From an uncultured Clostridia bacterium (GTDB lineage: Bacteria > Bacillota > Clostridia > Peptostreptococcales > Anaerovoracaceae): a stretch of DNA of 17,206 nt. The notes beneath the pieces were generated by a model. That model saw nothing but the letters and a program-made list of their open reading frames with translations. It was not told the DNA's origin and made no database searches. The stretch spans positions 1 through 17,206 of the forward strand of contig CAKQWL010000137.1 of the NCBI GenBank assembly GCA_934278965.1, read 5' to 3'. The position numbers and the translations under genes are program-made. Below, in pieces: positions 463-17,030 of the stretch; position 1 is the first letter of the stretch, and every line of letters begins with the position of its first letter.

Positions 463-1046
463 GTTGCGATTCTGAAGGACGGTTTGCCGGTTATCTGGCC
501 CTGTCCGATACCCTGCGGGAGGAGAGTGCAGGTATGGTGGACGAGATTTCGAAGCTCGGAGTCCGTCCGCTGCTGCTGACGGGCGATCAAGAAAATGCGG
601 CATCTGAAATTGCAGGGAAACTGCATATTCGAGATATGAAAGCGAACTGTCTTCCGGAGGATAAGCTCCGTGAGATCGGAAGGTACCAAGAGGAAGGAAT
701 GCCGGTTTGTATGATCGGCGACGGTATCAACGACGCCCCCGCATTGAAAAAAGCCGATGTGGGGATTGCTATGGGCGGTATCGGAAGCGATATTGCCGTA
801 GACGCCGCGGACATTGCGCTGGTGAACGATGAGGTAAAAGAAATCCCGCATCTTATCGCTTTGTCCAAACGCATGATGACGACCATCAGGCTGAACATGG
901 CGTTTTCGATGATACTGAACTTCGCCGCGATACTTTTGGCAATCACGGGAGCACTGAATCCTGTGGTGGGCGCGCTTGTACATAATGCGGGCTCCGTGCT
1001 GGTAATCACCAATTCGGCATTCCTGCTGCGTTGGAAAAGAAAATAA
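463..1046 (+). pseudogene. C-terminal fragment of P1B-type heavy-metal ATPase
   Basis: This codes for the end of a CadA/ZntA-type metal-exporting P-type ATPase. Visible motifs are LLLTGDQENAA, the hinge MIGDGINDAPALKKADVGIAMG, and the last two membrane helices with NPVVGALVHNAGSVLVITNS. The whole N-terminal portion is missing: metal-binding domain, first six helices with the CPC-type motif, and the DKTG phosphorylation site. The protein cannot be phosphorylated and should be inactive. Homology in the final frame begins at FAGYL (483). Just before it, VAILKDG (463-483) is readable one frame over, as if a single base had been lost there. No convincing ribosome binding site precedes the first internal ATG at 534. 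The upstream gene half was probably removed when the conjugative element inserted or was deleted. Metal specificity cannot be told from this part. Confidence 0.85.
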
Positions 1047-1796: not shown

Positions 1797-1822
1797 AAGA
1801 GCGGGCAGAGGCCCGCTCTTTT
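1797..1822. terminator. Bidirectional terminator between convergent genes
   Basis: AAGAGCGGGC (1797-1806) pairs perfectly with GCCCGCTCTT (1811-1820) around a 4-base loop. T residues follow on the plus strand, and the A residues before the stem give a short T run on the minus strand. It lies after the acetyltransferase and directly abuts the stop codon of the leftward MerR gene, so it can serve both. Confidence 0.85.
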
Positions 1823-2672
1823 ACGTATGCCGCTCGTTCACAGGCAGGACAAGCCTTGAGCAATACCGCCGCGTTTCGATCTCACGCCCCGTGTAAGGTG
1901 CAGCAATACCCAATACGCGCGGAAAGCCCGCGGGGAGGAGCGATCGGGAGGCTGCCTCGCGCCCAAGTGTCAGCCAGGCCTCGTCAATCCTGTCATAATC
2001 GCCGTAGTACAGGACGGACAGGGCACGGCATTCCGGCAGTACGACGGCGTCCTCCGGGGCCTTTTCCGGCAGCACCGGAACGCAGACCGAGAAGGGATAG
2101 GGGGTGTTGCCAATGTATCCGTTCAAATAATCCTGTCGTTCCGAAATCGTGAAAATCGGCTCATCAGAGAGCACACATCCTCTGCGGATGCACGCGCTGT
2201 AAAAATCATACATTGCAGTATATTTTTCCGAAATGGTATGCCCCTCGCACCGATTCATGCAGCAGGTCACGGAGGGGAGCGTTATGAGCTGTACGGAGAT
2301 TTCGGAGGTTTCCGCCGCGCGCAGCCGCAGTTCTTCCACACTGCGCTGCAAGTCGCGCAGCCGCAGTTCTTCCACACTGCGCTGCAAGTCGCGCAGCCGC
2401 GCCTCCAGCACCGTAAGAAATTGGGACACCTCCCCGCCATGCGCGAAATAGTTCGCGATCTCTTCCGTGCTGAGTCCCATGGCTTTGAATTTTTCAATCT
2501 GCAGAATACGGGCGATATTGTGATTGTCGTAATATCGCCGCCCGCTTCCCGGCGCGATGCGAGCCGGCGTAAGAAGCCCCTTTTCCTCCATGCGCAGGAG
2601 CGTACTGCGAGAGAGACCGCAGGCGTGTGCCGCCTCGGTGATCGGAAAGAGCTTGTTGATATTTTCTTGCAT
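1821..2672 (-). CDS. MerR-family transcriptional regulator with GyrI-like effector domain
   Basis: A DNA-binding regulator of about 283 residues. The N-terminus has the MerR winged helix: FPITEAAHACGLSRSTLLRM, then the wing with GSGRRYYDNHNIARIL, then a dimerisation coiled coil. The C-terminal 150 residues (from about VQLITLPSVTCC) look like a BmrR/GyrI-type small-molecule binding domain. I start it at the ATG at 2670-2672 because GAGGAAA precedes it at good spacing; a longer frame to 2714 would add 14 residues that run over the operator and lack a ribosome site. The coiled coil carries a perfect 12-residue duplication (LRDLQRSVEELR twice). The gene diverges from the SLH protein gene, and its own promoter and a MerR-type dyad lie in the shared region, so it probably controls itself and the surface protein. 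The effector is unknown. Confidence 0.88.
   Translation of the reverse strand: MQENINKLFPITEAAHACGLSRSTLLRMEEKGLLTPARIAPGSGRRYYDNHNIARILQIEKFKAMGLSTEEIANYFAHGGEVSQFLTVLEARLRDLQRSVEELRLRDLQRSVEELRLRAAETSEISVQLITLPSVTCCMNRCEGHTISEKYTAMYDFYSACIRRGCVLSDEPIFTISERQDYLNGYIGNTPYPFSVCVPVLPEKAPEDAVVLPECRALSVLYYGDYDRIDEAWLTLGREAASRSLLPAGFPRVLGIAAPYTGREIETRRYCSRLVLPVNERHT
2319..2390. repeat. 36-bp perfect tandem duplication in the MerR gene
   Basis: Two identical 36-bp units (2319-2354 and 2355-2390) lie side by side, followed by ten bases of a third unit (2391-2400). The unit encodes 12 residues of the coiled-coil linker, so the frame is kept. Full identity suggests a recent event. Confidence 0.95.
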
Positions 2673-2701
2673 ATTTTTTCCTCGAATACTCCTGAAGTCT
2701 C

Positions 2702-2732
2702 TTGATTCGTTCATAGGTGAACGAGTTATAAT
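2702..2732 (+). promoter_or_regulatory. MerR-type promoter with dyad operator, rightward
   Basis: A -35 like TTGATT (2702-2707) and a perfect -10 TATAAT (2727-2732) are separated by 19 bases, the over-long spacing typical of promoters activated by MerR-family proteins. The spacer holds the dyad TCGTTCA-TAGG-TGAACGA (2707-2724) with 7-bp perfect arms. It points toward the SLH protein gene, whose ATG is at 2881, leaving a leader of about 140 bases. Confidence 0.65.
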
Positions 2733-2880: not shown

Positions 2881-5800
2881 ATGTCAGTTCGAAAACGATT
2901 TTTGAGTGCTGCGTTGTGTCTGTGCATGCTGCTGTGTATATCGGGTGTCGGCGTGGGCACATATGCATATGCGGCGGATGGGACGCATGACAGTCACCCT
3001 ATTTGCGGTAAGACGCACACGGATATCGGTAATCATACGAGTGATCAGTGTCAGGCTGTTGAATGGATAGCGCTGACTCAGAGCGCGGTGGATGAGGCCG
3101 GCGGAACGATGACGCTGGAATCCGGCAAGAGTTATTATCTGAGTGAATCGATTACGGCACAGGACAGTGTTGTGCTTAGCGGCGGCACCGTGAATCTCTG
3201 TTTGAACGGAAAAAAGCTGACCGTGCCGATAGAGCAGATCCGGATGGGCAGTTATACGGTCGGTGGTGTAATTTGGGTCGACGGCGGCGCGGTTTTGAAT
3301 ATCTGCGATTGCGAGGGGACCGGCAGTATTTTATGTGAAGGGACGGATGAGCCGCTTTTCCAGAAATGTACTGTTTATTGCCTTCGGACCGGTGCGCTGA
3401 ATCTTTTCGGCGGAAACATCATCCGGACGGGAGGCGTGCACGGGCGAGCCGTGGAAATTACCAACTTTGCGGCATTCAAGATGTACGGTGGAACGGTTCA
3501 TAACCAAAACGACGACAGCTCCCGTCCCGCTGTGAATTCGAAAACCAGCGCTTCAAGCGAGTTTCCAGTTCGTATTTATGGGGGAGAAATTATTAGTGAT
3601 AGTGGTTACGGACTTGCGATGGACACGTACAATGCGGATGTCTTGATTGAGGGCGGAACGATTTCCGGAGGCCGATGCGCGGTTTATATCAATGCTGATG
3701 GTGATGCGCTGACATTGGGCGGCAGTCCGAACCTTTGTGTGACCGGAAGTGATCCTGAAGCAGTGCTTTATCTCACAGACCGGCCGGATTTTGTTATCAT
3801 AAGAGATGACTTCGCGCCCGCGCAGCCCATATCTGTTCGGGAGTTTGACAATAGCGAGTTCGCTAGGCCGGCCGCGCAAGACGGAACACTGGAGGAAAAA
3901 GCAGATTACTTTGTTTCTGCGACAGAGGGATATTTTGTAGAGTGCGCAGACAAAAATCTTCGTCTTACCGCCTGCAGGATCACGCAGCAGCCCGCGGCGG
4001 AGAACGATTATACCGTCATGGCGAATGGAAGCCCGGTATATCAGTGGTATAAAGCAGTCAAAGGAACTGTTCTCGTAACGAATGAGAATGCTGTCGACAG
4101 CGCTTCTTATTTTTGGTCGGATCGTTGGTCCGGCAGCCTTTCCGAGGGATGGACGGAAGTGTTTACGCTTTCGATGAAAAAGGATGATCCACTGAGACTA
4201 ACATTTAGTTCCGGCGGCGACATAGGCATTGAAGATGTTGATATTTTTGATACGGTAAGCGGTGAACGCTCAAATAATGTGGAGCGTTCAAGCTCCGAAA
4301 CAGGGGAGACTGTTTATACGCTGACCGCACCGGCAAGCGGAAATTATACGCTAAAGCTGCGGCTGGGCGAAGGGCGCGTGCCGGGAGGTATGGGGTGGTT
4401 TAGATTTTCCGCCGATACAGTGGCGTATGTGCCGGATACTGTGCTGAGAGGTCAGAGCGCCGCTACGCTTAATACTGCCGGGCTGCAAAGCGGAGTGTAT
4501 ATTTGCCAGGTTACATGGGAAAACAAGACCACCCGGGCAAGCGCCGAGGTGACTTATCTCCATACACATGTCTGGAAGAACGAATGGGAATCCAACGATA
4601 TCCAGCATTGGCATAAGTGCGAGGGCGCGGGTTGTGATGCCGTTTCTGAAAAGGGAGATCATGTTTATGAAAACGATCGCGATGCGGATTGCAATACCTG
4701 CGGTTACAGGCGTACGATTGCACCGCAGCCTTCCGGCAGCGGCAAAGGCGGCAGCACAGCATCAACGGTCCCAGTTCCGGTTATCGGCAGCCGCAGCACT
4801 GTGTCGGTTTCCGCATCTGTGAGCGGCGGTACGGCAGAGATCAAAGAAATTAAAGCGGATGAACTGGAGAAGATCGGTACAGACGGCAGTGTGATTCTGG
4901 ATCTTTCTTCGCTCGGGCGGAGCATAACAGGCGTGACGCTGCCGGCGGATACGCTCCGGGCCCTTTCGGATTCCGGGGTCGGCAGCATGGAAATTGCACT
5001 GCCGCATGCACGGCTTCAGTTGGATAAGAAGACACTCGCTGCACTCGCGGCGCAGCTGACCGGCCGTGATATCCGGTTGGTGGTGGAAACGGACAGTAAG
5101 GCAAAAAGCACGATGTCAGCCGCTCAGAAGCAGGCGCTTGACGGTATGAAAAATGCCGCCGCACTGGAGGCGTATTTCGTTTCCGGCGGTCAGCGCATTA
5201 CGGATTTTAACGGCGGCGAGGTAGAACTGAGCATCCCATATCAAGCATCCGGTGCGATTCGTGCGTGGTATCTCAGAGAGGGCGGCACGCGTGAGTCGGT
5301 TGCGGTGCACTATGACCGGGAAAATGCGCGGCTGACCCTGCGGCATTTCTCACATTATGTGATTGAGGAACTGGACGGCGGTGCAGAATATGCCATCTGT
5401 ACAAAGGACAACAGCTGTCCGCTCGCGGCGTTCTCCGATCTCAATCCGACAGCATGGTATCATGACGGGATCCATTATTGTCTCGAAAACGGCTTGATGC
5501 AGGGCATTTCCGGCGGAACATTCCTGCCGGATGGCGGCACTTCCCGTGCTCAGCTTGTCACAATTCTGTGGCGAATGGAAGGAGGTCCGGAGAAAAGCAG
5601 CACTGTCAGCTTCCGGGATGTAGAAGAGGATGCGTGGTTTGCCGAAGCTGTTCATTGGGCGGCAGCCGAAGGCATTGTGCAGGGACTTGGCGGCGAACGC
5701 TTTGCACCGGATGACAAAGTAACGCGCGAGCAGATGGTGACCGTTTTGTGGCGCTTTGCTAAATACAAGGGCGATGATGTAAGTATCGGTGAGGATACGA

Positions 5801-5991
5801 ATATTCTAAGTTATGCGGATGCGTTCAGCGTCAGCGATTACGCGATCCCCGCGATGCAGTGGGCCTGCGGCAGCGGGATGGTAAACGGTATCGAGAAAAA
5901 AGACGGATTATTCCTCGAACCGGGAGGCATGACGACCCGTGCGCAGACAGCATCCTTGATGATGCGTTTCTGTGCCGAGCAAATGAAGTAA
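2881..5991 (+). CDS. Secreted SLH-domain surface protein with beta-helix-like N-terminal region
   Basis: An exported cell-wall-associated protein of about 1036 residues. The ATG at 2881 is chosen because AAGGAG and GAGGAAAG lie just before it and it opens a clear Sec signal peptide: basic MSVRKRF, hydrophobic core, cleavage after TYAYA near residue 34. Residues about 60-330 have repeating GGxI/GGT turns (LSGGTVNL, MYGGTVHN, IYGGEIIS, IEGGTISGG), suggesting a parallel beta-helix. Around 561-609 is a Cys/His module (HTHVW, HWHKCEGAGC, CNTCGY) that could bind metal. A GSGKGGS linker and a beta-rich domain of a kind common just before SLH repeats in Clostridia follow. Three SLH repeats occupy about 847-1036 (FSDLNPTAWYHDGI, FRDVEEDAWFAEAV, then one with TTRAQTASLMMRF), anchoring it to secondary wall polymer. 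The ligand or enzymatic role is unknown. Its promoter has MerR features, and a terminator follows. Confidence 0.9.
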   Translation: MSVRKRFLSAALCLCMLLCISGVGVGTYAYAADGTHDSHPICGKTHTDIGNHTSDQCQAVEWIALTQSAVDEAGGTMTLESGKSYYLSESITAQDSVVLSGGTVNLCLNGKKLTVPIEQIRMGSYTVGGVIWVDGGAVLNICDCEGTGSILCEGTDEPLFQKCTVYCLRTGALNLFGGNIIRTGGVHGRAVEITNFAAFKMYGGTVHNQNDDSSRPAVNSKTSASSEFPVRIYGGEIISDSGYGLAMDTYNADVLIEGGTISGGRCAVYINADGDALTLGGSPNLCVTGSDPEAVLYLTDRPDFVIIRDDFAPAQPISVREFDNSEFARPAAQDGTLEEKADYFVSATEGYFVECADKNLRLTACRITQQPAAENDYTVMANGSPVYQWYKAVKGTVLVTNENAVDSASYFWSDRWSGSLSEGWTEVFTLSMKKDDPLRLTFSSGGDIGIEDVDIFDTVSGERSNNVERSSSETGETVYTLTAPASGNYTLKLRLGEGRVPGGMGWFRFSADTVAYVPDTVLRGQSAATLNTAGLQSGVYICQVTWENKTTRASAEVTYLHTHVWKNEWESNDIQHWHKCEGAGCDAVSEKGDHVYENDRDADCNTCGYRRTIAPQPSGSGKGGSTASTVPVPVIGSRSTVSVSASVSGGTAEIKEIKADELEKIGTDGSVILDLSSLGRSITGVTLPADTLRALSDSGVGSMEIALPHARLQLDKKTLAALAAQLTGRDIRLVVETDSKAKSTMSAAQKQALDGMKNAAALEAYFVSGGQRITDFNGGEVELSIPYQASGAIRAWYLREGGTRESVAVHYDRENARLTLRHFSHYVIEELDGGAEYAICTKDNSCPLAAFSDLNPTAWYHDGIHYCLENGLMQGISGGTFLPDGGTSRAQLVTILWRMEGGPEKSSTVSFRDVEEDAWFAEAVHWAAAEGIVQGLGGERFAPDDKVTREQMVTVLWRFAKYKGDDVSIGEDTNILSYADAFSVSDYAIPAMQWACGSGMVNGIEKKDGLFLEPGGMTTRAQTASLMMRFCAEQMK

Positions 5992-6054: not shown

Positions 6055-6215
6055 GCATTTCTACCGTTCTGCACGGCTTGTTCGACCCGGAGACCCGAAC
6101 GAAAATCGGCGGAGACGATTCAAAAAACTACTGTTTTAAGGGCTGTCGCCGTATATATAGATAGAGGATATACATGGCGGCTGGCGGAGACGGGAGTGAA
6201 AAAAGTAAGGTGGGC

Positions 6216-6237
6216 GGCATACCGGAAGCGGTATGCC
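6216..6237 (+). repeat. Perfect 9-bp hairpin at the start of the binding-protein gene
   Basis: GGCATACCG (6216-6224) and CGGTATGCC (6229-6237) form a perfect stem with a GAAG tetraloop. Related bases (GCAGTATGCCG) recur at 6242-6252. If translation starts at the ATG at 6283, the hairpin lies in the mRNA leader and could affect translation of the pst-like cluster. Confidence 0.6.
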
Positions 6238-6282
6238 AAAGGCAGTATGCCGAAAAATCAAAGCGGGGGTGCATTGAGGAGA

Positions 6283-7221
6283 ATGAACAGGAAAAAACGG
6301 AGCATCCACGCGGTGATGGAGGCAGTGCTGCTCTGCGTTTTCGCATTTGCGGGTGCATGGATCGGAAGCCGAATCCCGACGGAATTCTTTTGCACAGAAA
6401 CGGCGGGGAATTCAATTCATCCGATTACGAGAGAGGCGGGTTCCGGCACACGCGAATCCTTTCGGGAAAGCTTCGGAATCGAAAGGATAACGGATACGGC
6501 AGAGGTGACGAACAGTACAGCAGTCGTGCTTGCGGGAGTGATGGCCGATCCGGGGGCGATCGGATATGCGGCGCTTCCCTCGGTGATTCATTCCGGGGAG
6601 GGGCTTCGTGTCCTTCGGATTGACGGAACGGAAGCATCCGATCAAAGCGTGGAGGATGGGCGTTATCCGGCAATTCGGACGATCTTCGCGGTCACATACG
6701 GATGTCCGGGGGAGCAGGAGGAACATTTTCTCCGCTTTGTGTCGAGTGCCGCCGGCGTACGGGCCATTCGAGAGGCGGGTTGCTTTCCACTTGGTGCGGC
6801 TTTTCCGGAATCGGAAAACAATGCAGCAAATGCGGCGGAACGCGCCGAAAAATTGATTCTTGCAGGTTCTTCCTCGGCGATTCCGGTTTTTACCGCACTG
6901 AAAGAAGCCTATGAAGAGATCTGCGAAAAGGCGGGCATGCAGGTGCGGCTTGAAATCCAGCAGAGTGACAGCGCGCAGGCCATCGCATCGCTGCAGCAGG
7001 GAATCTGTGAAATCGGAATGACCTCCCGCCGCCTCACAGAAGAAGAAAAAGCCTGCGGGCTTCGGGAATATCCGGTGGCAGCGGATGCAATTGTTCTGGT
7101 CGTTCATCCGAAAAACCCGGTGAAAGAACTTTCGAGCGAAGAAGTCCGCAAAATTTATGAGGGGGCGATCACGGATTGGAGCGAGATCGAGGCAGGAAAA
7201 ACCGCCGGAAAACGCGAGTGA
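6283..7221 (+). CDS. Membrane-anchored PstS-like phosphate-binding protein with reversed half-domain order
   Basis: A PstS-like protein of about 312 residues, probably binding phosphate outside the membrane for the following permease genes. From the ATG at 6283 it has a basic start (MNRKKR) and one membrane anchor (residues about 9-29). In ordinary PstS the order is GSS near the N-terminus, IGMASR, HPxNPV, ITNW, then REEGSGTR, AIGY, YPxxRP. Here TREAGSGTR (49-57), GAIGYAALPSV and GRYPAIRT come first, then GSSSAIPVFTAL (about 196), EIGMTSRRL, VVHPKNPV and YEGAITDW (about 300), after which the protein ends. Both lobes are thus present but swapped, as in a circular permutation at the hinge. The start is uncertain: GTG at 6196 and ATG at 6247 are also in frame, and GAGGAG sits very close to the ATG at 6283. 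The 3' end overlaps pstC. Confidence 0.78.
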   Translation: MNRKKRSIHAVMEAVLLCVFAFAGAWIGSRIPTEFFCTETAGNSIHPITREAGSGTRESFRESFGIERITDTAEVTNSTAVVLAGVMADPGAIGYAALPSVIHSGEGLRVLRIDGTEASDQSVEDGRYPAIRTIFAVTYGCPGEQEEHFLRFVSSAAGVRAIREAGCFPLGAAFPESENNAANAAERAEKLILAGSSSAIPVFTALKEAYEEICEKAGMQVRLEIQQSDSAQAIASLQQGICEIGMTSRRLTEEEKACGLREYPVAADAIVLVVHPKNPVKELSSEEVRKIYEGAITDWSEIEAGKTAGKRE

Positions 7222-8093
7222 CGCCCGGGGAAGTGCTTCTGCTTTTGGCGGCCCTGATTTCATCGGCGGTGCTGCTTTTAATTTTCCTTTTTCTTGCGGC
7301 GGGGGCGTTTCCGGCGATTTGCAGGATAGGCCTCTGGAATTTTTTGCTGGGAAAAGTGTGGGACCCGGAGCACGGAAGCTACGGGATCTTTCCGATGCTG
7401 GTCGGAAGCGTTCTGGTGACGGCCGGGGCGGCGCTGATTGCGGGCGGCATCGGAACACTGACGGCCGTTTACCTGGCGGCATTCTGCCCAAAGAAACTTT
7501 ACCGCGTGATAAGAAGTTTGATTTCGGTGCTTGCCGGAAGTCCGTCCGGTGTGTACGGGATGTTCGGGATGGCTGTGCTGGTGCCGCAAATCCGGGCGCT
7601 GACAGGAAGCGACGGAAAGGGGATTTTAACCGCTTCCGTTCTTCTTGCGTGGATGATCCTGCCAACGATTGTCAGCACGGCAGAGCCGGCACTGCGTGCG
7701 GTGCCGATCCGGTTTTACGAAGGTTCGCGCGCACTCGGGGCGACGCACGAGGACAGTGTTTTCCGCGTTCTCCTGCCAGAAGCGGCTTCCGGTATCCTGA
7801 CCGGAATCGTACTCGGCATCGGACGCGCCGCCGGGGAAGCGACGGCGGTCGTTATGGTATGCGGCAATCAGCCGATTCTGCCGGAAAGCATTTTATCCGG
7901 CACCAGAACCCTGACGGCGAATATCATGATGGAGCTGGGATATGCGTCCGGGCTGCATCGGGAGGCGCTGATCGCGGCCGCCGCAGTGCTTTTGATATTT
8001 ATTCTGAGTCTGAATCTTTTCTTAGGGTTGGCTCGACGCCGGGGATCCGGAGAAGAAACGCGGCGGGTTAGACGGCGGGGCAGCCAAAAATAA
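7176..8093 (+). CDS. pstC: Phosphate ABC transporter permease PstC
   Basis: One of the two membrane subunits of a PstSCAB-type phosphate importer. About six hydrophobic helices are seen, the first at VLLLLAALISSAVLLLIFLF. Family signatures include GSYGIFPMLVGSVLVT and the cytoplasmic coupling loop EGSRALGATHEDSVFRVLLPEAASGI, which docks on the ATPase subunit. Length (305) fits the family. I use the TTG at 7176: GAGGGGG lies about ten bases upstream, and the start supplies a basic leader (RGRKNRRKTR) suited to positive-inside topology. The alternative is GTG at 7218, which overlaps the upstream TGA as GTGA but would lack that leader. With TTG, the gene overlaps the binding protein by 46 bases, implying translational coupling. 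Assigned as PstC rather than PstA from order and the GxYGIxP region. Confidence 0.88.
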   Translation: MERDRGRKNRRKTRVTPGEVLLLLAALISSAVLLLIFLFLAAGAFPAICRIGLWNFLLGKVWDPEHGSYGIFPMLVGSVLVTAGAALIAGGIGTLTAVYLAAFCPKKLYRVIRSLISVLAGSPSGVYGMFGMAVLVPQIRALTGSDGKGILTASVLLAWMILPTIVSTAEPALRAVPIRFYEGSRALGATHEDSVFRVLLPEAASGILTGIVLGIGRAAGEATAVVMVCGNQPILPESILSGTRTLTANIMMELGYASGLHREALIAAAAVLLIFILSLNLFLGLARRRGSGEETRRVRRRGSQK

Positions 8094-8149: not shown

Positions 8150-9010
8150 ATGCGGAAAGTAAATCCATTGGGCCGATCGGGAAACCGCCGTGCATTCTTT
8201 CGGGCGCGTCTGCTGCGAGGGGCTGTCTTTGCAGCTGCCGCGGCCGTGGTTTTTATAGCAGGGGCGCTGATCGGGAAGATTCTGGCAGGGGGACTTCCGT
8301 ATCTGTCTTTCCGAGATTTTTTACCGGATGGAAAAGACGAAGCAGGGAACCTTTTCGCGCCGCTGCTGAACACGGTGCGGATGACCGCAGCGGCATTGAT
8401 CCTTGCTGTACCGGCAGGAATTTTCGCAGCGGTTTATTTGACGGAGTATGTCGGAGAAGCGAGTCGGAGTGCGGCGGCAGTGCGGCTTGCATCGGAAACA
8501 TTGGCGGGAATTCCATCGATTGTCTACGGTCTTTTCGGTTTCCTGTTTTTCTCGGTTTTTGCGGGGTTGGGATATAGTCTTTTCAGCGGCGCGGCAACGC
8601 TTGCCCTGATGACGCTGCCGCTGATCCTGCGGCAGACAGAGGAAGCACTGACGGCAGTGCCGCATTCCTATCGGGAGGGAAGTCTGGGACTTGGGGCGGG
8701 ACGCTGGCGTACGATTGTCCGGGTGGTCCTTCCGGCGGCAGCGCCGGGGATCGCGGCAGGAATCCTGCTTGCGGTCGGAAGAATGGTGGGGGAGACCGCG
8801 GCGCTCCTTTATACCGCTGGTACGGCTTCGGGGGCGGCGCAAAGCCTGCTCGCTTCCGGCAGGACATTGGCGGTGCATCTTTACGCACTCTTTTCAGAAG
8901 GCCTTTTTCCGGAGGAAGCAAAAGCCGCGGCGGCGGCCATTTTGCTGCTTGCGATCGCGACGAATTTGACGGCGGAGCTCCTCTTCCGGCGGCAGCACGG
9001 TCGGAAATAG
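8150..9010 (+). CDS. pstA: Phosphate ABC transporter permease PstA
   Basis: The second permease subunit, 286 residues. GAGGAAA precedes the ATG at good spacing. A basic N-terminus is followed by a helix (AVFAAAAAVVFIAGALIG) and about five more. Visible family features are LLNTVRMTAAALILAVPAGI, LAGIPSIVYGLFG, and the ATPase-coupling loop YREGSLGLGAGRWRTIVRVV followed by LPAAAPGI. It forms a heterodimer with PstC in the membrane. The gap to pstC is 56 bases. Unlike in a standard cluster, no pstB (ATPase) or phoU follows: the next gene, 140 bases on with its own promoter, is an acyl-CoA synthetase. The transporter would need an ATPase encoded elsewhere. Confidence 0.9.
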   Translation: MRKVNPLGRSGNRRAFFRARLLRGAVFAAAAAVVFIAGALIGKILAGGLPYLSFRDFLPDGKDEAGNLFAPLLNTVRMTAAALILAVPAGIFAAVYLTEYVGEASRSAAAVRLASETLAGIPSIVYGLFGFLFFSVFAGLGYSLFSGAATLALMTLPLILRQTEEALTAVPHSYREGSLGLGAGRWRTIVRVVLPAAAPGIAAGILLAVGRMVGETAALLYTAGTASGAAQSLLASGRTLAVHLYALFSEGLFPEEAKAAAAAILLLAIATNLTAELLFRRQHGRK

Positions 9011-9037
9011 ATTTTGGGGCTTTTCTTGCGGCTTTTC

Positions 9038-9066
9038 TTGCTTCACCGTCTAAAAGATGTTAAAAT
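9038..9066 (+). promoter_or_regulatory. Promoter for the ligase/racemase operon
   Basis: TTGCTT (9038-9043) and TAAAAT (9061-9066) are 17 bases apart, about 85 bases before the first ligase ATG. Just upstream GGCTTTTCTTGC is directly repeated, the second copy containing part of the -35. The lack of a clear terminator between pstA and this site leaves read-through possible. Confidence 0.5.
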
Positions 9067-9150
9067 ATACTATTATCAGAGATTAGACAAGCAAGACAGA
9101 TGACGCCGTTTGAACGCGGAAAAGAGGACGGAAGAAGAGGATTGGAATAG

Positions 9151-10890
9151 ATGAATCATAGAAAGTATAAGGATGTACTTTACGAAGTACGGGAAATCAA
9201 CAGCATCAGAGAGCTGTTTGCGAGTTCGACGGAGCTTTTTGCGCATCGGACCGCGTATTTGACGAAGGAGAAACCGGGCGGGAAATATGTTCCGGTAAAA
9301 TATTCACGCGTTAAAGAGGATGTGGAATGTCTCGGGACCGGATTCCTGAAACTCGGGCTGAAGGGCCGGAAGATCGCCGTTATCGGGGAAAACAGCTACG
9401 AATGGGTAATGACTTATCTGGCGGTTGTGTGCGGCGTGGGCGTGATCGTGCCGCTTGACAAGGATTTGCCGGTGAATGAGATTGTCAATCTCCTGTCGCG
9501 TGCACACGTCAGTGCGGTCGTGTATTCTAAAAAGTGTGAGAAGATGGTGCTGGAAGCGCTCGAACAGCTTCCGCCGGAGGAACAGATTCGTTATACGATC
9601 TGTATGAAACAGCCGCATGACAAGAGAAGCCGGGAGCTTTCCGATATTATGGAGTTCGGAAGAGACGCACTTCTGGAAGGAGATCGCAGCTTTGCCAATG
9701 CCGAAATCGATCCGGATGCGATGTGCACATTGATGTTTACTTCCGGAACGACGGGTCTTTCCAAAGGGGTTATGCTCAGTCACCGGAATATCGCGTCCAA
9801 TGTACGCAATATGTCCAAGTATGTAAAGGTAGGGCGAGAGGATATCGGGCTTTCCGTGCTGCCGATGCACCATGCTTATGAAATGACCTGTCATATCCTG
9901 ACCGGATTTTATCAGGGGATGACGGTTGCCATCTGTGAAGGCTTGAAATATATCAGTAAAAATATGGTGGAGGCAAAGGTTACCGTGATGCTCGGTGTGC
10001 CGCTCATCTTCGAAAACATGCACAAAAAGATGATGAAACAGGCTTCTTCCAAAGGAAAGTTTGAAAAGATGCAGCGCATGATGGAAATTTCCAAAAAGTA
10101 TCGGCTGTACAATGAGCCGAGGCTGGTAAAGAAGATTTTCAAGAGCTTCCATGAAGCAACCGGCGGAAATATCCGACTGTTTATCGCGGGCGGTGCGGCG
10201 ATCAATCCGAAGGTCATCGAAGATTTTCAGGCGCTCGGATTCCCGATGATCCAGGGATACGGCATGAGCGAGAATTCTCCGATCATCGCAGTGAACCGGG
10301 ATAATTACAGCAAGCCGGAAGCGGTAGGGCCGGCGATGCCGGAAACCGAAGTACAGATTGTCAATCCGAGTGAAGACGGTGTCGGCGAGATCATCGTACG
10401 CGGGCCGTCGGTCATGCTCGGTTATTATGAAAATCCGGAAGCGACGGCAGAGGCGATTCAGGATGGGTGGCTTTATACCGGCGATTACGGTTATTTTGAT
10501 GAGGACGGCTTTCTCTATATCTCCGGGCGGAAGAAGAATGTTATCGTCGCGAAGAACGGGAAGAATATTTTCCCGGAGGAGATCGAATATCTTCTGACAG
10601 AGACCGATTATATCAAAGAGGCACTTGTACACGGAGAGATTGATGCGAAAAGCGGAGATACCGTGGTAAAGGCTGAGCTTTATCCGGATTATGACCGGAT
10701 CAAGAAGGATTTCGGCAAGCTGAAGGACGAGGAGATCGAAGGCTTGATGAAGCATGTCGTGGATCAGGTGTGCGATGAAATGCCGCCGTATAAGCGGGTG
10801 ATGCGAATTGGTATCAGAAATACAGAATTTGAGAAGACTACCACAAAGAAGATCAAGAGAAACGCCGAAGCCAATAAATCGAAGCATTAA
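9151..10890 (+). CDS. AMP-forming long-chain acyl-CoA synthetase (first paralogue)
   Basis: An adenylate-forming ligase of the FadD15-like long-chain acyl-CoA synthetase group (COG1022), 579 residues, which activates a carboxylic acid with ATP and transfers it to CoA. Seen: the phosphate loop TSGTTGLSKGVMLSH from residue 197, GYGMSE at 369-374 (adenine/acyl contacts), YTGDYG at 442 containing the ribose-binding Asp, GRKKN near 459, and the C-terminal KKIKR with the probable catalytic Lys567. All key residues are present. A GGAAGAAGAGG-like ribosome site precedes the ATG. It is followed 87 bases later by a paralogue of the same fold, sharing VIGENSY and VPLDK blocks. The natural acid substrate cannot be read from the sequence; membrane lipid or fatty acid recycling is the usual role. 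Confidence 0.9.
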   Translation: MNHRKYKDVLYEVREINSIRELFASSTELFAHRTAYLTKEKPGGKYVPVKYSRVKEDVECLGTGFLKLGLKGRKIAVIGENSYEWVMTYLAVVCGVGVIVPLDKDLPVNEIVNLLSRAHVSAVVYSKKCEKMVLEALEQLPPEEQIRYTICMKQPHDKRSRELSDIMEFGRDALLEGDRSFANAEIDPDAMCTLMFTSGTTGLSKGVMLSHRNIASNVRNMSKYVKVGREDIGLSVLPMHHAYEMTCHILTGFYQGMTVAICEGLKYISKNMVEAKVTVMLGVPLIFENMHKKMMKQASSKGKFEKMQRMMEISKKYRLYNEPRLVKKIFKSFHEATGGNIRLFIAGGAAINPKVIEDFQALGFPMIQGYGMSENSPIIAVNRDNYSKPEAVGPAMPETEVQIVNPSEDGVGEIIVRGPSVMLGYYENPEATAEAIQDGWLYTGDYGYFDEDGFLYISGRKKNVIVAKNGKNIFPEEIEYLLTETDYIKEALVHGEIDAKSGDTVVKAELYPDYDRIKKDFGKLKDEEIEGLMKHVVDQVCDEMPPYKRVMRIGIRNTEFEKTTTKKIKRNAEANKSKH

Positions 10891-10912
10891 CGGCCGGAGC
10901 GCAGCTTCGGAT

Positions 10913-10935
10913 CTTGCCGCGGGTCAGGCGGCAAG
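10913..10935 (+). repeat. Intercistronic hairpin between the two ligase genes
   Basis: CTTGCCGC (10913-10920) and GCGGCAAG (10928-10935) form a perfect 8-bp stem with a 7-base loop. A second small stem, CCGGAGC with GCTTCGG and one G-T pair, lies just before it. No T run follows, so it looks like an mRNA processing or stability element rather than a terminator. Confidence 0.5.
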
Positions 10936-10977
10936 GCAGCATTAAAGAAGGGACAAGAGAAGAGAGAGGAACTTGCA

Positions 10978-12789
10978 ATGATGAATGAATCGGATTACCG
11001 GAACATGAAAGCCCGCGACAGGGCATGGGCCGATCAGTTTGTGAAAAAGATAAAGGAAAGCCCGGATCCGGCAGTAAAATACAGGGATTCGCGGCCGATC
11101 ACCGACATCAAGGATATGGTGGAATCCTCCTGCCGTGAGTTTGCGGAGAATACGGCATTTCTGGTAAAAGATACAAAGGGCGGAGAATATCGCCCGATCA
11201 AATATAAAGAAGCCCTTTTGGATATCAACGGACTCGGGACGGCCTTGATCGCCGCGGGGCTCAAGGACCGGAAAATTTCGGTTATCGGGGAAAACAGCTA
11301 TCAGTGGGCAATTTCTTACCTCGCGGCGGTCTGCGGGACAGGCATTGTCGTGCCGCTGGACAAGGAACTTTCTGCAGGGGAACTGAGACAGCTTGTGCAG
11401 GAAGCGGAGGTCAGCTGTGTCATCTTTGACGCGAAGCACGAGGAGGTCTTTCGCCAGATGAAAGCGGACGGGGACACATCGATCGAACTTCTTGTTTCCA
11501 TGCAGGCAGAGCAGAGCGATAAAGAGGTCTTTGCGTGGAAGGACCTTACAGAATCCGGACGCAACATGGTATTGGCAGGACATACTGAGTTTACAGACGC
11601 GCAGATTGACAGTGACGAAATGAGCATCCTGCTCTTCACATCCGGTACGACCGGTGTTTCCAAGGGCGTTATGCTCAGCCACCGGAATATCGCGGCGGAT
11701 TTGATGGCAGCGCCGACGGTGCTCTGGGTAAAGCCGACGGATCGCTTTTTCTCTTTCCTGCCGCTTCATCACACTTATGAATGCACCGCAGGGTTCCTGA
11801 TGCCGTTTTACAAAGGGGCATCGATTGCCTACTGTGAGGGATTAAAGTATATTGTCAAGAATTTGAGCGAGGCACATCCGACCTTTTTCCTCGGTGTGCC
11901 GGCTGTATTCGAGAATCTGTATAAAAAAATCTGGCAGAATGTTCGGAAGAAGGGAAAGGAAGATTTGCTGAAAAAGGTGATCCGTATCAACCGGAAGACC
12001 AAAAAAGTCGGAATCGACTTGGGCGGGATCTTTTTCAAGGATATCCGGGCGCTTTTCGGCGGCAATATGCGCATGATGATTGCGGGAGGTGCTGCGATCG
12101 ATCCGGCGGTATTGGAAGGCTTCCAGGATTTCGGCATTATGGCCCTCCAGGGCTATGGACTGACGGAGGCAGCGCCGCTTGGCGCGCTGAATCCGGATAC
12201 CGCGCCGAACAGCCGCTCCATCGGGAAGAAATTTCCGTGCTTCGATCTTCGGATCGACCAGCCGGGAGAAGACGGTGTCGGCGAGGTCTGCCTGAAGGGC
12301 GACAACATTATGCTGGGTTATTACAAACGACCGGACCTTTCGGCGGAAGTGCTGAAGGACGGCTGGTTCCACACCGGCGATTTAGGATACATGGACAAAG
12401 ACGGTTATGTATACCTGACCGGCCGGAAGAAAAATGTCATTATTGCCAAAAACGGCAAGAATGTATATCCGGAAGAGCTCGAGTACTATCTTTCCAGGAT
12501 TCCGTATATCGCAGAATCCATGGTTTGGGGAAGGCCGTCGGAGGACGGAAGCGATACGGTTATCGTGGCTTCGGTCGTTCTGAATGAAGAGGCTTTCTGT
12601 GAGCAGTTCGGAAATCAGGAAATGAGCGACGATGAAATCATCGCGCTTCTTTGGAAGGAGGTCGATAAAATCAATCTTGAAGTTCCGTTCTTCAAGAAAA
12701 TCAAGGCGATCGTCCTCCGAAAAGAGGAGTTCGAGAAGAACAGCTCCCGGAAGATCAAGCGTTTTGCGGAGGGCAATAAAAAAGAATAG
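10978..12789 (+). CDS. AMP-forming long-chain acyl-CoA synthetase (second paralogue)
   Basis: A second COG1022-type ligase, 603 residues, with complete motifs: TSGTTGVSKGVMLSH from 221, GYGLTE at 392-397, HTGDLG at 465, GRKKN near 482 and the catalytic-region RKIKR with Lys592. It is about 24 residues longer than its neighbour, mainly through an N-terminal extension. Shared blocks (VIGENSY, SYLAAVCG, VPLDKEL) show that the pair arose by duplication, but they have diverged widely in the acid-binding middle part (residues about 240-390), so they probably accept different acids. GAGAGGAAC lies before the ATG pair at 10978/10981; either may be the start. The racemase gene follows after 44 bases, so all three are probably cotranscribed. 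Confidence 0.9.
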   Translation: MMNESDYRNMKARDRAWADQFVKKIKESPDPAVKYRDSRPITDIKDMVESSCREFAENTAFLVKDTKGGEYRPIKYKEALLDINGLGTALIAAGLKDRKISVIGENSYQWAISYLAAVCGTGIVVPLDKELSAGELRQLVQEAEVSCVIFDAKHEEVFRQMKADGDTSIELLVSMQAEQSDKEVFAWKDLTESGRNMVLAGHTEFTDAQIDSDEMSILLFTSGTTGVSKGVMLSHRNIAADLMAAPTVLWVKPTDRFFSFLPLHHTYECTAGFLMPFYKGASIAYCEGLKYIVKNLSEAHPTFFLGVPAVFENLYKKIWQNVRKKGKEDLLKKVIRINRKTKKVGIDLGGIFFKDIRALFGGNMRMMIAGGAAIDPAVLEGFQDFGIMALQGYGLTEAAPLGALNPDTAPNSRSIGKKFPCFDLRIDQPGEDGVGEVCLKGDNIMLGYYKRPDLSAEVLKDGWFHTGDLGYMDKDGYVYLTGRKKNVIIAKNGKNVYPEELEYYLSRIPYIAESMVWGRPSEDGSDTVIVASVVLNEEAFCEQFGNQEMSDDEIIALLWKEVDKINLEVPFFKKIKAIVLRKEEFEKNSSRKIKRFAEGNKKE

Positions 12790-12833
12790 AGCAGATACAG
12801 TTTCACAGTGGATAAGAAAACGGAGGATTACAG

Positions 12834-13928
12834 ATGGATGGAAATTTGCGTTACCCGTGTTTAGTAATCAATCTTAGGAAGCTTGGCGAAAACATTAAGG
12901 CAATGAGAGAATTCTGTGAGGCGCAGGGCGTTGAGATGGCCGGCGTCATCAAGGGGTTCAGCGGCATTACGGAGTGCGTGCGGGAGTATGAAAAATCCGG
13001 GGTCAGTTACCTTGCGTCCTCCCGGCTCGGACAGCTCGCGCGGGTCAAAGAGGCCGGGATCCGGATTCCGACGATGTGCATTCGGATTTCGATGCTGTCG
13101 GAGGTATCGGATTTGGTGCGGTACGCGGATTGCTCGCTTCAAAGTGAGGAAAGCGTTCTTCGGGCGATTGACCAGGCTGCGCAAGCGCAGAATAAGATTC
13201 ATGATGTGATTCTGATGGCGGATCTGGGAGATTTGAGAGAAGGATTCTGGACGACCGAGGATCTGGTGTCGGCGGCGCTTTTGACCGAAAAGGAACTGCC
13301 GAATGTTCGGCTTCTCGGTGTGGCAACGAACCTCGGCTGTTACGGTTCCGTGGAAGCTACTCCGGAAAAAATGGAGGAGCTCATTGAGCGGGCAGAAGCA
13401 GTGGAGGCCGCAATCGGGCGAAAGCTGCGGTATATCGGCGGCGGGGCAACGACATCTATTCCGCGTTTGTTCGAGCATAACATGCCGAAGCGAATCAACC
13501 TTCTTCGAATCGGGGAGGCGGCCATTTACGCACGGGACCTGCCGGACTTCTTTGCGCTGCCGCTGCCGTTTCTCCACAACGATGCGTTTGTCCTAAAGGC
13601 GGAAATCATCGAGGTGAAGACCAAGGCGTCGCATCCGGTCGGAAACATCACGGTGGATGCGTTCGGACGCAGGAACGAGTATGAGGACCGCGGGATGCGG
13701 AAACGCGCGCTTGCTGCGGTCGGCAAGGTGGATTACGGTGATCCGTTTGATCTGATTCCGCGGGAGGCGGGGATCGAAGTGATCGGGGCCTCCAGCGACC
13801 ATACGATTTTGGATGTCGAAAACTGCGGGAGAGATCTTCAGGTAGGCGATATCGTGGAATTTGATGTGCGCTACGGGACAGGTGTTTACCTTACTTCTTC
13901 GGAAGATGTGAAGCTGTATTTTGAATAA
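12834..13928 (+). CDS. PLP-dependent amino acid racemase, alanine/ornithine racemase type (COG3457)
   Basis: A fold-type III PLP enzyme of 364 residues, belonging to the group that includes clostridial ornithine racemase and related predicted amino acid racemases. YPCLVINLRKLGENIK opens the TIM barrel, and the PLP-binding lysine is Lys40 in AGVIKGFSG. Further features are MADLGDLREGF, GVATNLGCYG, the phosphate-binding YIGGGATTSIP, and LLRIGEAAI. The C-terminal part is a beta domain with GASSDHTILDVE. Unlike typical Alr, the glycine-rich GGG loop and the C-terminal GASSDH are those of the ornithine-racemase-like branch. AACGGAGGA lies about ten bases before the ATG. Substrate is open: D-ornithine, D-alanine or another amino acid. 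Its link to the two upstream ligases is not a known pathway to me. Confidence 0.85.
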   Translation: MDGNLRYPCLVINLRKLGENIKAMREFCEAQGVEMAGVIKGFSGITECVREYEKSGVSYLASSRLGQLARVKEAGIRIPTMCIRISMLSEVSDLVRYADCSLQSEESVLRAIDQAAQAQNKIHDVILMADLGDLREGFWTTEDLVSAALLTEKELPNVRLLGVATNLGCYGSVEATPEKMEELIERAEAVEAAIGRKLRYIGGGATTSIPRLFEHNMPKRINLLRIGEAAIYARDLPDFFALPLPFLHNDAFVLKAEIIEVKTKASHPVGNITVDAFGRRNEYEDRGMRKRALAAVGKVDYGDPFDLIPREAGIEVIGASSDHTILDVENCGRDLQVGDIVEFDVRYGTGVYLTSSEDVKLYFE

Positions 13929-13968
13929 TTTTGACGGGGGCCGCTTTGGTGCGGAATCCGCAGGGTAT

Positions 13969-13998
13969 TTGACAAAAGGCAGGCAATTCCTGTATAAT
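13969..13998 (+). promoter_or_regulatory. Strong sigma-A promoter for greA-lysS
   Basis: A perfect TTGACA (13969-13974) and a perfect TATAAT (13993-13998, preceded by TG) are spaced 18 bases apart. It sits 35 bases before the greA ATG, giving a short leader with AAGGAG. The bases before it (13935-13962) hold only weak GC-rich pairing, not a convincing terminator for the racemase operon. Confidence 0.85.
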
Positions 13999-14032
13999 AT
14001 GAGGAATAATGAGTGGCCGGAAGGAGATAAAA

Positions 14033-14503
14033 ATGTCAGAAGAAATTTTATTAACCAGAGAGGGTTATGAAAAAATCGTCGCGGAGCATGATGAGCTCGT
14101 CGCAGTACGCCGAAAAGAGGTTGCGGAAAGAATCAAGGAAGCGCTTTCTTACGGCGATATTTCCGAGAATGCGGAATACGATGCCGCCAAAAATGAACAG
14201 GCAGAGCTTGAGGAGCGTATTCACAAACTCGAAAATATGATGCGAAAAGCCAAGATCATCGAGGAGTCCGAACAGAGCGGGGATACCGTATCTGTCGGAA
14301 CAAAGGTACGCGTCAAAGACACCAAAACCGGCGACGAGATGGACTTTATTATTGTCGGGTCGACAGAAGCGGACCCGTTTGAGGGTAAGATTTCCAATGA
14401 ATCGCTTGTCGGTGCCGGACTTCTCGGCAGTAAGCTCGGAGAAGTTGTGGAAATTGCCGTACCGGATGGAGTTGTGAATTATGAGATCGTTTCGATCGGT
14501 TAG
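14033..14503 (+). CDS. greA: Transcription elongation factor GreA
   Basis: GreA enters the RNA polymerase secondary channel and stimulates cleavage of backtracked transcripts. At 156 residues it has the normal family length. The N-terminal antiparallel coiled coil (about 1-75) ends in the tip motif YGDISENAEYDAAK with the acidic residues Asp42 and Glu45 that hold the catalytic metal. The C-terminal FKBP-like domain includes VSVGTKVRV, DEMDFIIVGS, and ISNESLVGAGLLGSKLGEVV. The ATG at 14033 is preceded by AAGGAG at ideal spacing; an in-frame upstream ATG at 14009 would add eight residues without a ribosome site and is rejected. It is followed 36 bases later by lysS, a pairing common in Bacillota, and is driven by a strong promoter. 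Confidence 0.97.
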   Translation: MSEEILLTREGYEKIVAEHDELVAVRRKEVAERIKEALSYGDISENAEYDAAKNEQAELEERIHKLENMMRKAKIIEESEQSGDTVSVGTKVRVKDTKTGDEMDFIIVGSTEADPFEGKISNESLVGAGLLGSKLGEVVEIAVPDGVVNYEIVSIG

Positions 14504-14539
14504 ATCGGTGAAGCGGAAAGAAATAGAGAGGGAAAGAAA

Positions 14540-16081
14540 ATGACAGACGAAAGAAATGTACATGTAAACCTTGAGCAGGAAGGCGATTTGTCGGAAGAAC
14601 AGCTGACAGAACAGAGAGTGATCCGAAGAGAGAAGCTCCGCAAGCTTCAGGAAATGGGCAGAAATCCGTTCCTCGTGGAGACTTGGGATGTCGATGCGTA
14701 CAGCAAGGATGTTCGGGACAATTTCGAAAAGTGGGAAGGCAAGACGGTATCGATGGCGGGCCGTATTATGGCGAACCGCCACATGGGCAAGGCTTCTTTC
14801 ATCGATATTCTCGATCGTGACGGTAAGATTCAGGCCTACATTCGTCAGGATGAAATCACGCCGGAAGAGTACGAAATCTTCCTTACTTACGATATCGGCG
14901 ATATCGTAGGTTTCGTCGGCGAAGTATTCAAGACGAGACACGGTGAGGTGTCGGTGAAGGTGCATAAGCTGGTGCTCCTCAGCAAGTCCCTCCAGGTACT
15001 CCCGAACAAATGGCATGGATTGAAGGACATCGACCAGAGATACCGTCAGAGATATGTAGATTTGATCATCAATCCGGAAGTACGGGAAATGTTCTATAAG
15101 AGAGCCGCAATCATTCATGAGATTAAGAGAACCCTCGAAGAGGATTTCGGTTATCTCGAAGTCGATACGCCGATCCTGACAACGATTGCGGGCGGCGCGA
15201 ACGCAAGACCGTTCAACACCCATCACAACACGCTGGATTTGGACATGAAGATGCGTATTTCCAACGAGCTTTTCCTGAAGAGATGCGTAGTCGGCGGTCT
15301 GGACCGTGTCTATGAAATGGGCAAGATGTTCCGAAACGAAGGAATGGACAGAAATCACAATCCGGAATTTACTTCCATGGAGTGTTACGCGGCTTATACC
15401 AACATGGAGTTCGTAATGGAGGTAACCGAAACGGTTGTTTCCAACGCAGCGATGAAGGCGAACGGCTCGATGAAGATCAATTATCAGGGAAAGGAATTTG
15501 ACCTGACTCCGCCGTGGAGAAGACTGAAGATGTCCGACGCAGTAAAGGAAATTACCGGCGTGGACTTCGATAAGATTACAACGGATGAAGAGGCAAGAGA
15601 GGCGGCCATTCAGTACGGAATGGATCCGGAAGACGCAAATAAGTGGACACGCGGCAAGATTCTCGCGGAAATGTTCGAGGACTACTGCGAAGATGTTCCG
15701 GGATATCTGGACGGACCGGTCTTCGTAGTCGGCCACCCGGTAGAGATTTCCCCGCTTGCAAAGAGAGATCCGGAAGATCCGAGAATCACCAGAAGATTCG
15801 AAGCGTATATCAACGGATGGGAAATCGCCAACGCGTTCTCCGAGCTGAATGACCCAATCGACCAGTACGAGAGATTCGCAGAGCAGCAGGCGCAGCTCGA
15901 CAGCGGAGAAGATGACGAGGCACATCCGATGGATCTGGACTTCGTCAACGCACTTGAAGTAGGACTTCCGCCGACCGGAGGCCTCGGAATCGGAATCGAC
16001 CGTGTCATCATGCTGGTAACGAACGCGCCGTCGATTCGCGATATCATGCTCTTCCCGACCATGAAGCCGCTGGACAAATAA
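14540..16081 (+). CDS. lysS: Lysyl-tRNA synthetase, class II
   Basis: Charges tRNA-Lys with lysine in the cytoplasm. The protein has 513 residues, close to the usual 490-510. The N-terminal anticodon-binding OB fold runs about 65-165 (VSMAGRIMANRHMGKASF). The class II catalytic core follows: RQRYVDLI near 170, motif 2 KMFRNEGMDRNHNPEFTSME around residue 262, and motif 3 GGLGIGIDRVIMLV from 480 with the ATP-binding Arg488. DTPILT and GGANARPFNTHHN are typical of LysRS. The N-terminal 25 residues are a charged, Glu-rich extension. GAGAGGGAAAG precedes the ATG. It forms an operon with greA and ends at a strong terminator; no T-box leader is seen before greA. Confidence 0.97.
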   Translation: MTDERNVHVNLEQEGDLSEEQLTEQRVIRREKLRKLQEMGRNPFLVETWDVDAYSKDVRDNFEKWEGKTVSMAGRIMANRHMGKASFIDILDRDGKIQAYIRQDEITPEEYEIFLTYDIGDIVGFVGEVFKTRHGEVSVKVHKLVLLSKSLQVLPNKWHGLKDIDQRYRQRYVDLIINPEVREMFYKRAAIIHEIKRTLEEDFGYLEVDTPILTTIAGGANARPFNTHHNTLDLDMKMRISNELFLKRCVVGGLDRVYEMGKMFRNEGMDRNHNPEFTSMECYAAYTNMEFVMEVTETVVSNAAMKANGSMKINYQGKEFDLTPPWRRLKMSDAVKEITGVDFDKITTDEEAREAAIQYGMDPEDANKWTRGKILAEMFEDYCEDVPGYLDGPVFVVGHPVEISPLAKRDPEDPRITRRFEAYINGWEIANAFSELNDPIDQYERFAEQQAQLDSGEDDEAHPMDLDFVNALEVGLPPTGGLGIGIDRVIMLVTNAPSIRDIMLFPTMKPLDK

Positions 16082-16091
16082 AGTCTGTATC

Positions 16092-16109
16092 AGTCTATAC
16101 ACATAGACT
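16092..16109 (+). repeat. Small hairpin just after lysS
   Basis: AGTCTAT and ATAGACT form a perfect 7-bp stem with an ACAC loop, ten bases after the stop codon. AGTCT also occurs at 16082-16086. No T run follows, so it may protect the transcript 3' end or do nothing. Confidence 0.4.
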
Positions 16110-16158
16110 TACAGAAAGTTATGTTCCGACAATCTTTGTAATTTTAATCATGTTCCGA

Positions 16159-16190
16159 AGCCCACCGAGAAATCGGTGGGCTTTTTGTTT
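16159..16190 (+). terminator. Intrinsic terminator of greA-lysS
   Basis: AGCCCACCGA (16159-16168) pairs perfectly with TCGGTGGGCT (16173-16182) around a GAAA tetraloop and is followed by TTTTTGTTTCT. This is a textbook Rho-independent terminator. Confidence 0.95.
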
Positions 16191-16474
16191 CTGCTCGTTT
16201 CATTCCAAAACAGAATGTGATGGTTTTTTTTGTTTTCATTTATTAGAAGTGTAGGGCAAAACACCCTGCACGATCCTTGAAATTGGCTACTATGAAATCT
16301 TGAGCTACGGAGTACCGAAGTATTAAAAGAACTGCCACCCATTGGGGTGGCAGCTACATAGTTAAAAATCAAGAGACTGTTTCAAGTTTTGTGTAAACCT
16401 CAAAATCGGTGTGGAAAATCAACGAATAATGTACACGGCTCAGGGTATCTGTTGGATATGGGTTACCTCTGGAA
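16191..16474. other. AT-rich non-coding stretch with hairpins, possible mobile-element remnant
   Basis: No gene is supported here; the one minus-strand frame of 74 codons (16148-16372) spans two terminator-like stems and has no ribosome site. The stretch holds a hairpin at 16247-16269 (GTGTAGGG with CCCTGCAC, one G-T pair), a second perfect hairpin at 16332-16353, and a segment at 16372-16400 (GAGACTGTTTCAAGTTTTGT and on) that reminds me of IS256-family terminal repeats. The spacing of compact stems also recalls right ends of IS200/IS605 elements. Both ideas are inference from general appearance. Confidence 0.35.
16332..16353 (-). terminator. Hairpin, probable terminator for the leftward gene
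   Basis: CTGCCACCC (16332-16340) and GGGTGGCAG (16345-16353) form a perfect 9-bp stem with an ATTG loop. On the minus strand the stem is followed by TTCTTTTAATA, suiting termination of the leftward gene ending at 16475. On the plus strand no T run follows. Confidence 0.55.
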
Positions 16475-16990
16475 TTATAGTGTGATGGTAATATCTTCGC
16501 GGACTGTTGTACTTAAGCGGATTTCTATTTTCTTTGGATCGGTTATCGGGTCTCCGTTCCATAAATGAAGATTCCGCGCTAAAACCCATCCGCAGTCACT
16601 GCCGCCAAGCTTATACATTTCGATTATTGAATCAGGTAATTCTAAATGCTTTTCGGGATTATCATAATATGGATTTATACTTGTTCCGCACCCATGAGAA
16701 AATTTAAGCTGCCGATCGTCTACTTTCAAAGATGTTCTTTGGTCAAATGTAAAAGGATTGTCTTCGTCATTTACAACTTGGTTACTTGTTACATTATCCA
16801 TGAATTTTAAAATATCTTCTTTTTTGATTTTTTTGCAGTAGTCGATAATAATGCCTGCATTACATAGATATATTGCGTTGAAGCGCCAGAAAGCATTTGC
16901 AAATTCCTTTTCGATATTTAAAATGCTTACCGCAGCCCAATCCGTAAATTTCTCCTGACCCCAACACAAAGCTTCTAATTTAATTACCAT
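16475..16990 (-). CDS. Hypothetical protein, 171 residues
   Basis: I do not recognise this family. The ATG at 16988-16990 is chosen because CGGAGG lies seven bases before it; a longer frame reaching 17143 would read the neighbouring His-rich coding region out of frame as threonine-rich sequence and is rejected. The protein has no signal peptide or membrane segment. It starts MVIKLEALCWGQEKFTDWAA, has a central charged part (KKIKKEDILKFMDNV), and ends with a strand-rich C-terminus (EIRLSTTVREDITITL). Several Trp and Cys residues suggest a folded cytoplasmic protein. Its base composition is clearly AT-richer than its neighbours, which suggests later acquisition. Small, orphan, AT-rich genes like this include immunity proteins of toxin systems, but nothing here proves that. 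It lies 40 bases after the NifX-like gene and may be cotranscribed with it. Confidence 0.75.
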   Translation of the reverse strand: MVIKLEALCWGQEKFTDWAAVSILNIEKEFANAFWRFNAIYLCNAGIIIDYCKKIKKEDILKFMDNVTSNQVVNDEDNPFTFDQRTSLKVDDRQLKFSHGCGTSINPYYDNPEKHLELPDSIIEMYKLGGSDCGWVLARNLHLWNGDPITDPKKIEIRLSTTVREDITITL

Positions 16991-17030
16991 GTTATGCCTC
17001 CGATTCTTAGTTCTTCCGATTTTCGGTTTT

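Follow-up and report, generated by a model that had tools for sequence, protein, structure and literature searches.

A PstS-type phosphate-binding protein with swapped half-domains in an uncultured Clostridia bacterium belongs to an old permuted family

Two kinds of phosphate-binding protein PstS are the closest described relatives of the gene considered here. In canonical PstS of Bacillota (NCBIfam TIGR02136; structures 4gd5 and 4q8r) the N-terminal half precedes the C-terminal half, and the residues touching phosphate, as known from Escherichia coli PstS, lie in the motifs R..GSGT, GSSS, DS and SR. The other is PstS 2 of Streptococcus pneumoniae (SP_2084, structure 4h1x), whose name assigns it to the Pst2 operon as binding protein; according to PMC4913102, the Pst2 system of this species has a part in phosphate uptake. 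Other permuted binding proteins, such as those of the betaine-binding OpuAC type (2b4l), belong to a different family, bind another ligand and are about 15% identical, and their permutation was presumably a separate event. Here we describe a pstS gene in a stretch of 17,206 nucleotides, hereafter the window, from contig CAKQWL010000137.1 of an uncultured Clostridia bacterium. The half-domains of its product are in swapped order, and the swap is old, common to a large family with a solved structure and not peculiar to this gene.

The evidence for the swap comes from both profiles and structures. Pfam PBP_like_2 (121.7 bits against a cut-off of 27, E 6.2e-35) and TIGR02136 (151.9 bits, E 2.1e-44) each match the protein in two stretches, the better of which, profile positions 3-129 of 267 and 27-157 of 295, respectively, is the first half of the profile lying at the end of the protein; matches of this strength cannot be put down to chance. 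The first-pass annotation, made from the sequence alone, had placed C-lobe motifs before N-lobe motifs, and those motifs are indeed found in that order. The canonical chains 4gd5 and 4q8r align to the window protein as two swapped pieces. In contrast, 4h1x gives a single collinear alignment over residues 68-331, with 33% identity in the structural alignment. A further canonical chain, 9l8j, is matched only over residues 188-304, and no other canonical PstS appears among the best 50 rows of the structure search; since the aligners are sequential, such partial or missing matches are no evidence against kinship. Neither profiles nor structural alignments find the canonical order in this protein, which has the C-terminal and then the N-terminal half in one chain, collinear with 4h1x. 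Because of this collinearity, the reversed order can be said to be present already in a solved structure. AlphaFold2 predicts a two-lobed type II binding-protein fold, in which both halves of the phosphate site would face one cleft as in a normal PstS.

The open frame (6196..7221, forward strand, as are all features of the gene) has three candidate starts, GTG 6196, ATG 6247 and ATG 6283, giving 341 amino acids from the first and 312 from the last. A hydrophobic N-terminal segment is evident from the sequence (6307..6372) and is modelled by AlphaFold2 as a helix, 9-22, with low confidence. Numbering residues from GTG 6196, the PstS C-terminal half comes first (6415..6789, residues 74-198) and includes the lobe-2 phosphate-contact motif REAGSGTR (6430..6453), of which R79, E80, G82, S83, G84, T85 and R86 are invariant in our alignment A1. 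The former C-terminus is connected to the former N-terminus by a linker (6790..6849) that varies in length in the alignment and is modelled with low confidence, and the N-terminal half follows (6850..7191, residues 219-332). This half carries the GSSS contact loop (6865..6876; G224, S225 and S227 invariant, S226 nearly so), the DS motif (6967..6972; S259 invariant, D258 nearly so), followed by AQA where the family has TTG, and the SR motif (7024..7029; S277 and R278 invariant). All four contact motifs are thus present, as had been claimed for SGT and GSS. By the alignment, the chain ends in a tail extending nine residues past the usual family end (7192..7218). The earlier interpretation as a whole is partly supported: it had proposed a clean circular permutation at the hinge, and the permutation stands, but the cut lies between ITDW and GSGT, a point that we take to be inside lobe 2 and not at the inter-lobe hinge.

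The permuted form is widespread. Among 120 matches listed of 2021 scored homologues, 118 have the order C-N, one C-N-C and one N-N-C, and once a second search is added C-N is found in 236 of the 239 listed proteins, although these lists came from permuted queries and the share of the form among all PstS cannot be read from them. When 507 relatives were scanned with aligned permuted proteins, 80 loci were retained, and Streptococcus, Blautia, Adlercreutzia, Helicobacter anseris and a Spirochaetaceae metagenome-assembled genome are all represented among them; all 83 PstS-like open reading frames (ORFs) at these loci are C-N. Genome samples, counted by eye from match lists, gave a full-length permuted match in 8 of 199 genomes from the phylum of Blautia sp. 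MSJ-19 (any TIGR02136 match in 155, above cut-off in 122), in 50 of 150 from its family (57 matches, of which two contain an in-frame stop), in 39 of 148 from the order of Streptococcus hillyeri and in 34 of 100 from the order of an Adlercreutzia. One more genome in each of the two order-level samples has the gene apparently split across two contigs. Nine of 12 genomes picked for the permuted form had no second match at E 1e-3; two Streptococcus genomes carry a canonical copy besides the permuted one, and the third remaining genome has a weak match in a 741-amino-acid frame. At locus L162 a second permuted pstS-like gene (4984-5886, reverse strand), whose product would have a transmembrane-like N-terminus, is interrupted by an in-frame stop; an open permuted copy lies 3 kb away, and the gene after the interrupted one encodes a RelA_SpoT domain.

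Phylogeny points to a common origin. In a careful tree of both halves (88 rows, long-branch row L135 excluded) the 35 permuted rows form one clade (100/100), whose neighbours are three canonical rows (99/89). Canonical PstS rows stand apart from the permuted clade in the trees and the window protein groups inside it; 4h1x itself was not a row, but the Streptococcus permuted genes L013 and L020 were. When L135 was restored together with 15 more, mostly divergent, permuted rows, the permuted clade had a Shimodaira-Hasegawa-like approximate likelihood-ratio support of 98, and trees of the C-half and the N-half each contain a starred permuted clade. Two results speak against a single clade: in a first quick tree (36 hand-picked permuted and 53 canonical rows, the weak canonical-like 741-amino-acid frame L098 excluded) it was supported by only 88 with L135 present, and in the N-half tree L135 falls outside it. 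One old permutation nonetheless seems the simplest reading of these sequence comparisons, which are silent on the route.

The usual route to a circular permutation is duplication and loss, which predicts tandem intermediates. Three listed proteins deviate from C-N, P0010 and P0204 reading C-N-C and P0110 reading N-N-C. In P0010 and P0204 the first C-half and the N-half belong to the permuted clade and the second C-half falls among canonical rows. However, their first C-halves are 100% and 99.2% identical to one strain, their N-halves only 71% and 67.9%, and their contigs are shorter than 1.7 kb. Because of this mosaic identity and the short contigs, which suggest recombinants or assembly chimeras, we did not take them as evidence on the route.

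The gene appears to lie in a pst operon, as canonical pstS does. It is followed on the forward strand by pstC (7218..8093; TIGR02138 231.3 bits, cut-off 196.45) and pstA (8150..9010; TIGR00974 228.1 bits, cut-off 193.45). For pstC, the gene caller gives TTG 7176, but GTG 7218 is probably the better start; it shares the sequence GTGA with the pstS stop, so that pstS would overlap pstC. Two genes for AMP-binding enzymes follow pstA (window 9010-17206), and Pfam finds no PhoU domain in five ORFs downstream of it (the lysS-like ORF 14540-16081 left out). Across loci L001-L080, 70 of the 83 permuted genes are followed, inside the locus as fetched, by same-strand pstC, pstA and pstB in that order; this count is from a hidden Markov model (HMM) search, which we used in preference to a motif search that found a pstB-like ATPase for 39 of the 83. 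Ten of the remaining 13 reach the locus end, which leaves L073, L069 and the first copy of L001 as true exceptions. By strict adjacency, pstC or pstA lies beside 103 of 125 unique permuted genes.

Taken together, the window protein is very probably the phosphate-binding subunit of a Pst ATP-binding cassette (ABC) importer, of the circularly permuted PstS2 type, and most likely keeps the ordinary job of handing phosphate to the uptake pump. From the likely anchor its chain runs through C-half with GSGT, linker and N-half with GSSS, DS and SR; it would bind inorganic phosphate and pass it to PstC/PstA, and a PstB encoded outside the window would power uptake. The permuted ancestor probably arose a single time, whether through duplication and loss or through some equivalent rearrangement, and with the permutation the tether to the membrane would have passed from lobe 1 to lobe 2, the cleft staying unchanged. 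Permuted PstS lets one ask, in a natural setting, whether either lobe of a binding protein can hold the tether.

Several observations weigh against such an unchanged role, and some would fit a protein that has kept the fold but changed its job, to a membrane-anchored sensor or a binder of another oxyanion, with a degenerate or partnerless PstCA. The window branch is long (1.62 changes per column) in a tree, hereafter the neighbour tree, of all 22 permuted genes without adjacent pstC, a random draw of 45 of the 103 with it, the window, P0002, P0005 and five canonical rows. The protein also differs at 37 columns conserved at 90% or more in the 65 other rows of alignment A2; one of these is a gap, two lie in the signal region, and the TTG to AQA change beside the DS motif is among them. 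The close relatives P0002-P0004 share 36 of the 37 departures, so the change is old and has been kept. No lipobox cysteine is found in the sequence, and the corresponding column of A2 has alanine in the window protein and cysteine in 65 of 65 rows besides the window and P0002-P0004; the lipoprotein signal of canonical PstS is thus missing, and the segment 6307..6372 is likely an uncleaved membrane anchor. Since L002, sister of the window in the neighbour tree (98/88), has a lipobox and is linked to pstC, the lipobox looks to have been lost within the window lineage. Furthermore, neither motif nor HMM search finds pstB in the window, unlike in most relatives; a related permuted sub-clade has switched its genomic partner; and single pst mutants of S. 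pneumoniae, according to PMC4913102, do not show the drop seen in the double mutant. The window protein, with its longer tail, its anchor-like N-terminus lacking a lipobox and no pstB found in the window, also stands apart from S. pneumoniae PstS2, which it resembles in permuted order, matching ends and fold. Nevertheless, the contact motifs are kept and pstC and pstA are open and score above their NCBIfam cut-offs, and we regard a changed job as unlikely.

Much less probable still is that the gene is a broken remnant, left when a tandem N-C-N-C pstS shed its two outer halves in this genome and kept the middle, a reading close to the alternative suggested at first. The duplication-and-loss route would predict such a form, and P0010 and P0204 do read C-N-C. 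However, these two look like mosaics on contigs under 1.7 kb, relatives have the same ends, those in named genomes of other phyla included, and neither N-C-N-C nor C-N-C occurs among the classified locus ORFs; the family-wide order largely refutes a remnant or pseudogene. Finally, an assembly artefact in the contig of the window has next to no probability and is refuted by independent sequences: P0001, of the same length and 98.5% identical (not identical), lies on a 313 kb contig, and relatives 60-69% identical show the same order on other contigs. In one close relative, P0003, the linker between the half-domains is about 46 residues longer than in P0002 and has repeated SGAGNSHA-like units. 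A lipobox regular expression misses 23 of the 83 permuted ORFs; by eye, some of the misses come from ORFs with starts set too far upstream or from variant lipoboxes, and in others, such as those of Blautia, the cysteine is absent.

In one permuted sub-clade, not that of the window, a sodium/phosphate (Na+/Pi) cotransporter-like gene directly adjoins the permuted gene in place of pstC. The genes so placed are L158, L159, L161, L163, L177-L181, L210, L211 and L001 (1-2425). Pfam finds Na_Pi_cotrans in two stretches together with PhoU, weak in L163, in all seven transporter-like proteins submitted to it (563-595 amino acids), and the other such neighbours were identified with an HMM built from four of them. 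Within 250 bases and on the same strand, such a neighbour is present for 12 of the 125 unique permuted genes and for none of the 54 unique canonical ones, the former being an enriched count, as one search was aimed at finding more of this sub-clade. Among the 57 permuted genes of the Blautia family sample, whose neighbours were examined in part, at least 4 are Na+/Pi-linked (L158, L159, L161, L163). In the neighbour tree the 12 sit in one 16-row clade (100/99), the other four rows having other neighbours. The transporter gene is downstream in nine of the 12 and upstream in three; GS[ST]S is kept in all 12 and GSGT in ten (DSGT in L163, SSGT in L181). Genes for polyphosphate kinase and a CorA-like protein adjoin two clade members, L158 1938-4942 and L209 1220-4207. 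It is tempting to suggest, with somewhat less than even confidence, that permuted PstS arose once and that one branch later gave up the ABC transporter and now serves a Na+/Pi cotransporter with Na_Pi_cotrans and PhoU domains as its dedicated extracellular binding protein. Such a pair would be a secondary phosphate transporter, or a sensor, that depends on a binding protein. The logic would be analogous to that of the tripartite ATP-independent periplasmic (TRAP) and tripartite tricarboxylate transporter (TTT) systems, with a different transporter. If functional, it might be a new pairing of binding protein and secondary transporter.

The permuted form is poorly visible in current annotation. 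The window protein, at 151.9 bits, does not reach the curated TIGR02136 cut-off of 206.6, and because ten other permuted proteins (152.4-202) also fall below it, the shortfall goes with permutation. With 11 of 11 tested members below the NCBIfam PstS cut-off, permuted PstS may be overlooked or misnamed in surveys of phosphate uptake. Among eight listed homologues with a source name, five are called substrate-binding domain-containing protein, one extracellular solute-binding protein and two phosphate transport system substrate-binding protein. In listings of the open-access literature we recognised nothing describing a permuted PstS, and the available parts of PMC9732360 and PMC12421899 hold nothing on it. 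Elsewhere in the window, a 170-amino-acid ORF of the haloacid dehalogenase (HAD) type (534-1046, forward strand) looks like a P-type ATPase reduced to its C-terminal end, and a MerR-family regulator (1821-2714, reverse strand) contains a 12-residue direct repeat (RDLQRSVEELRL twice).
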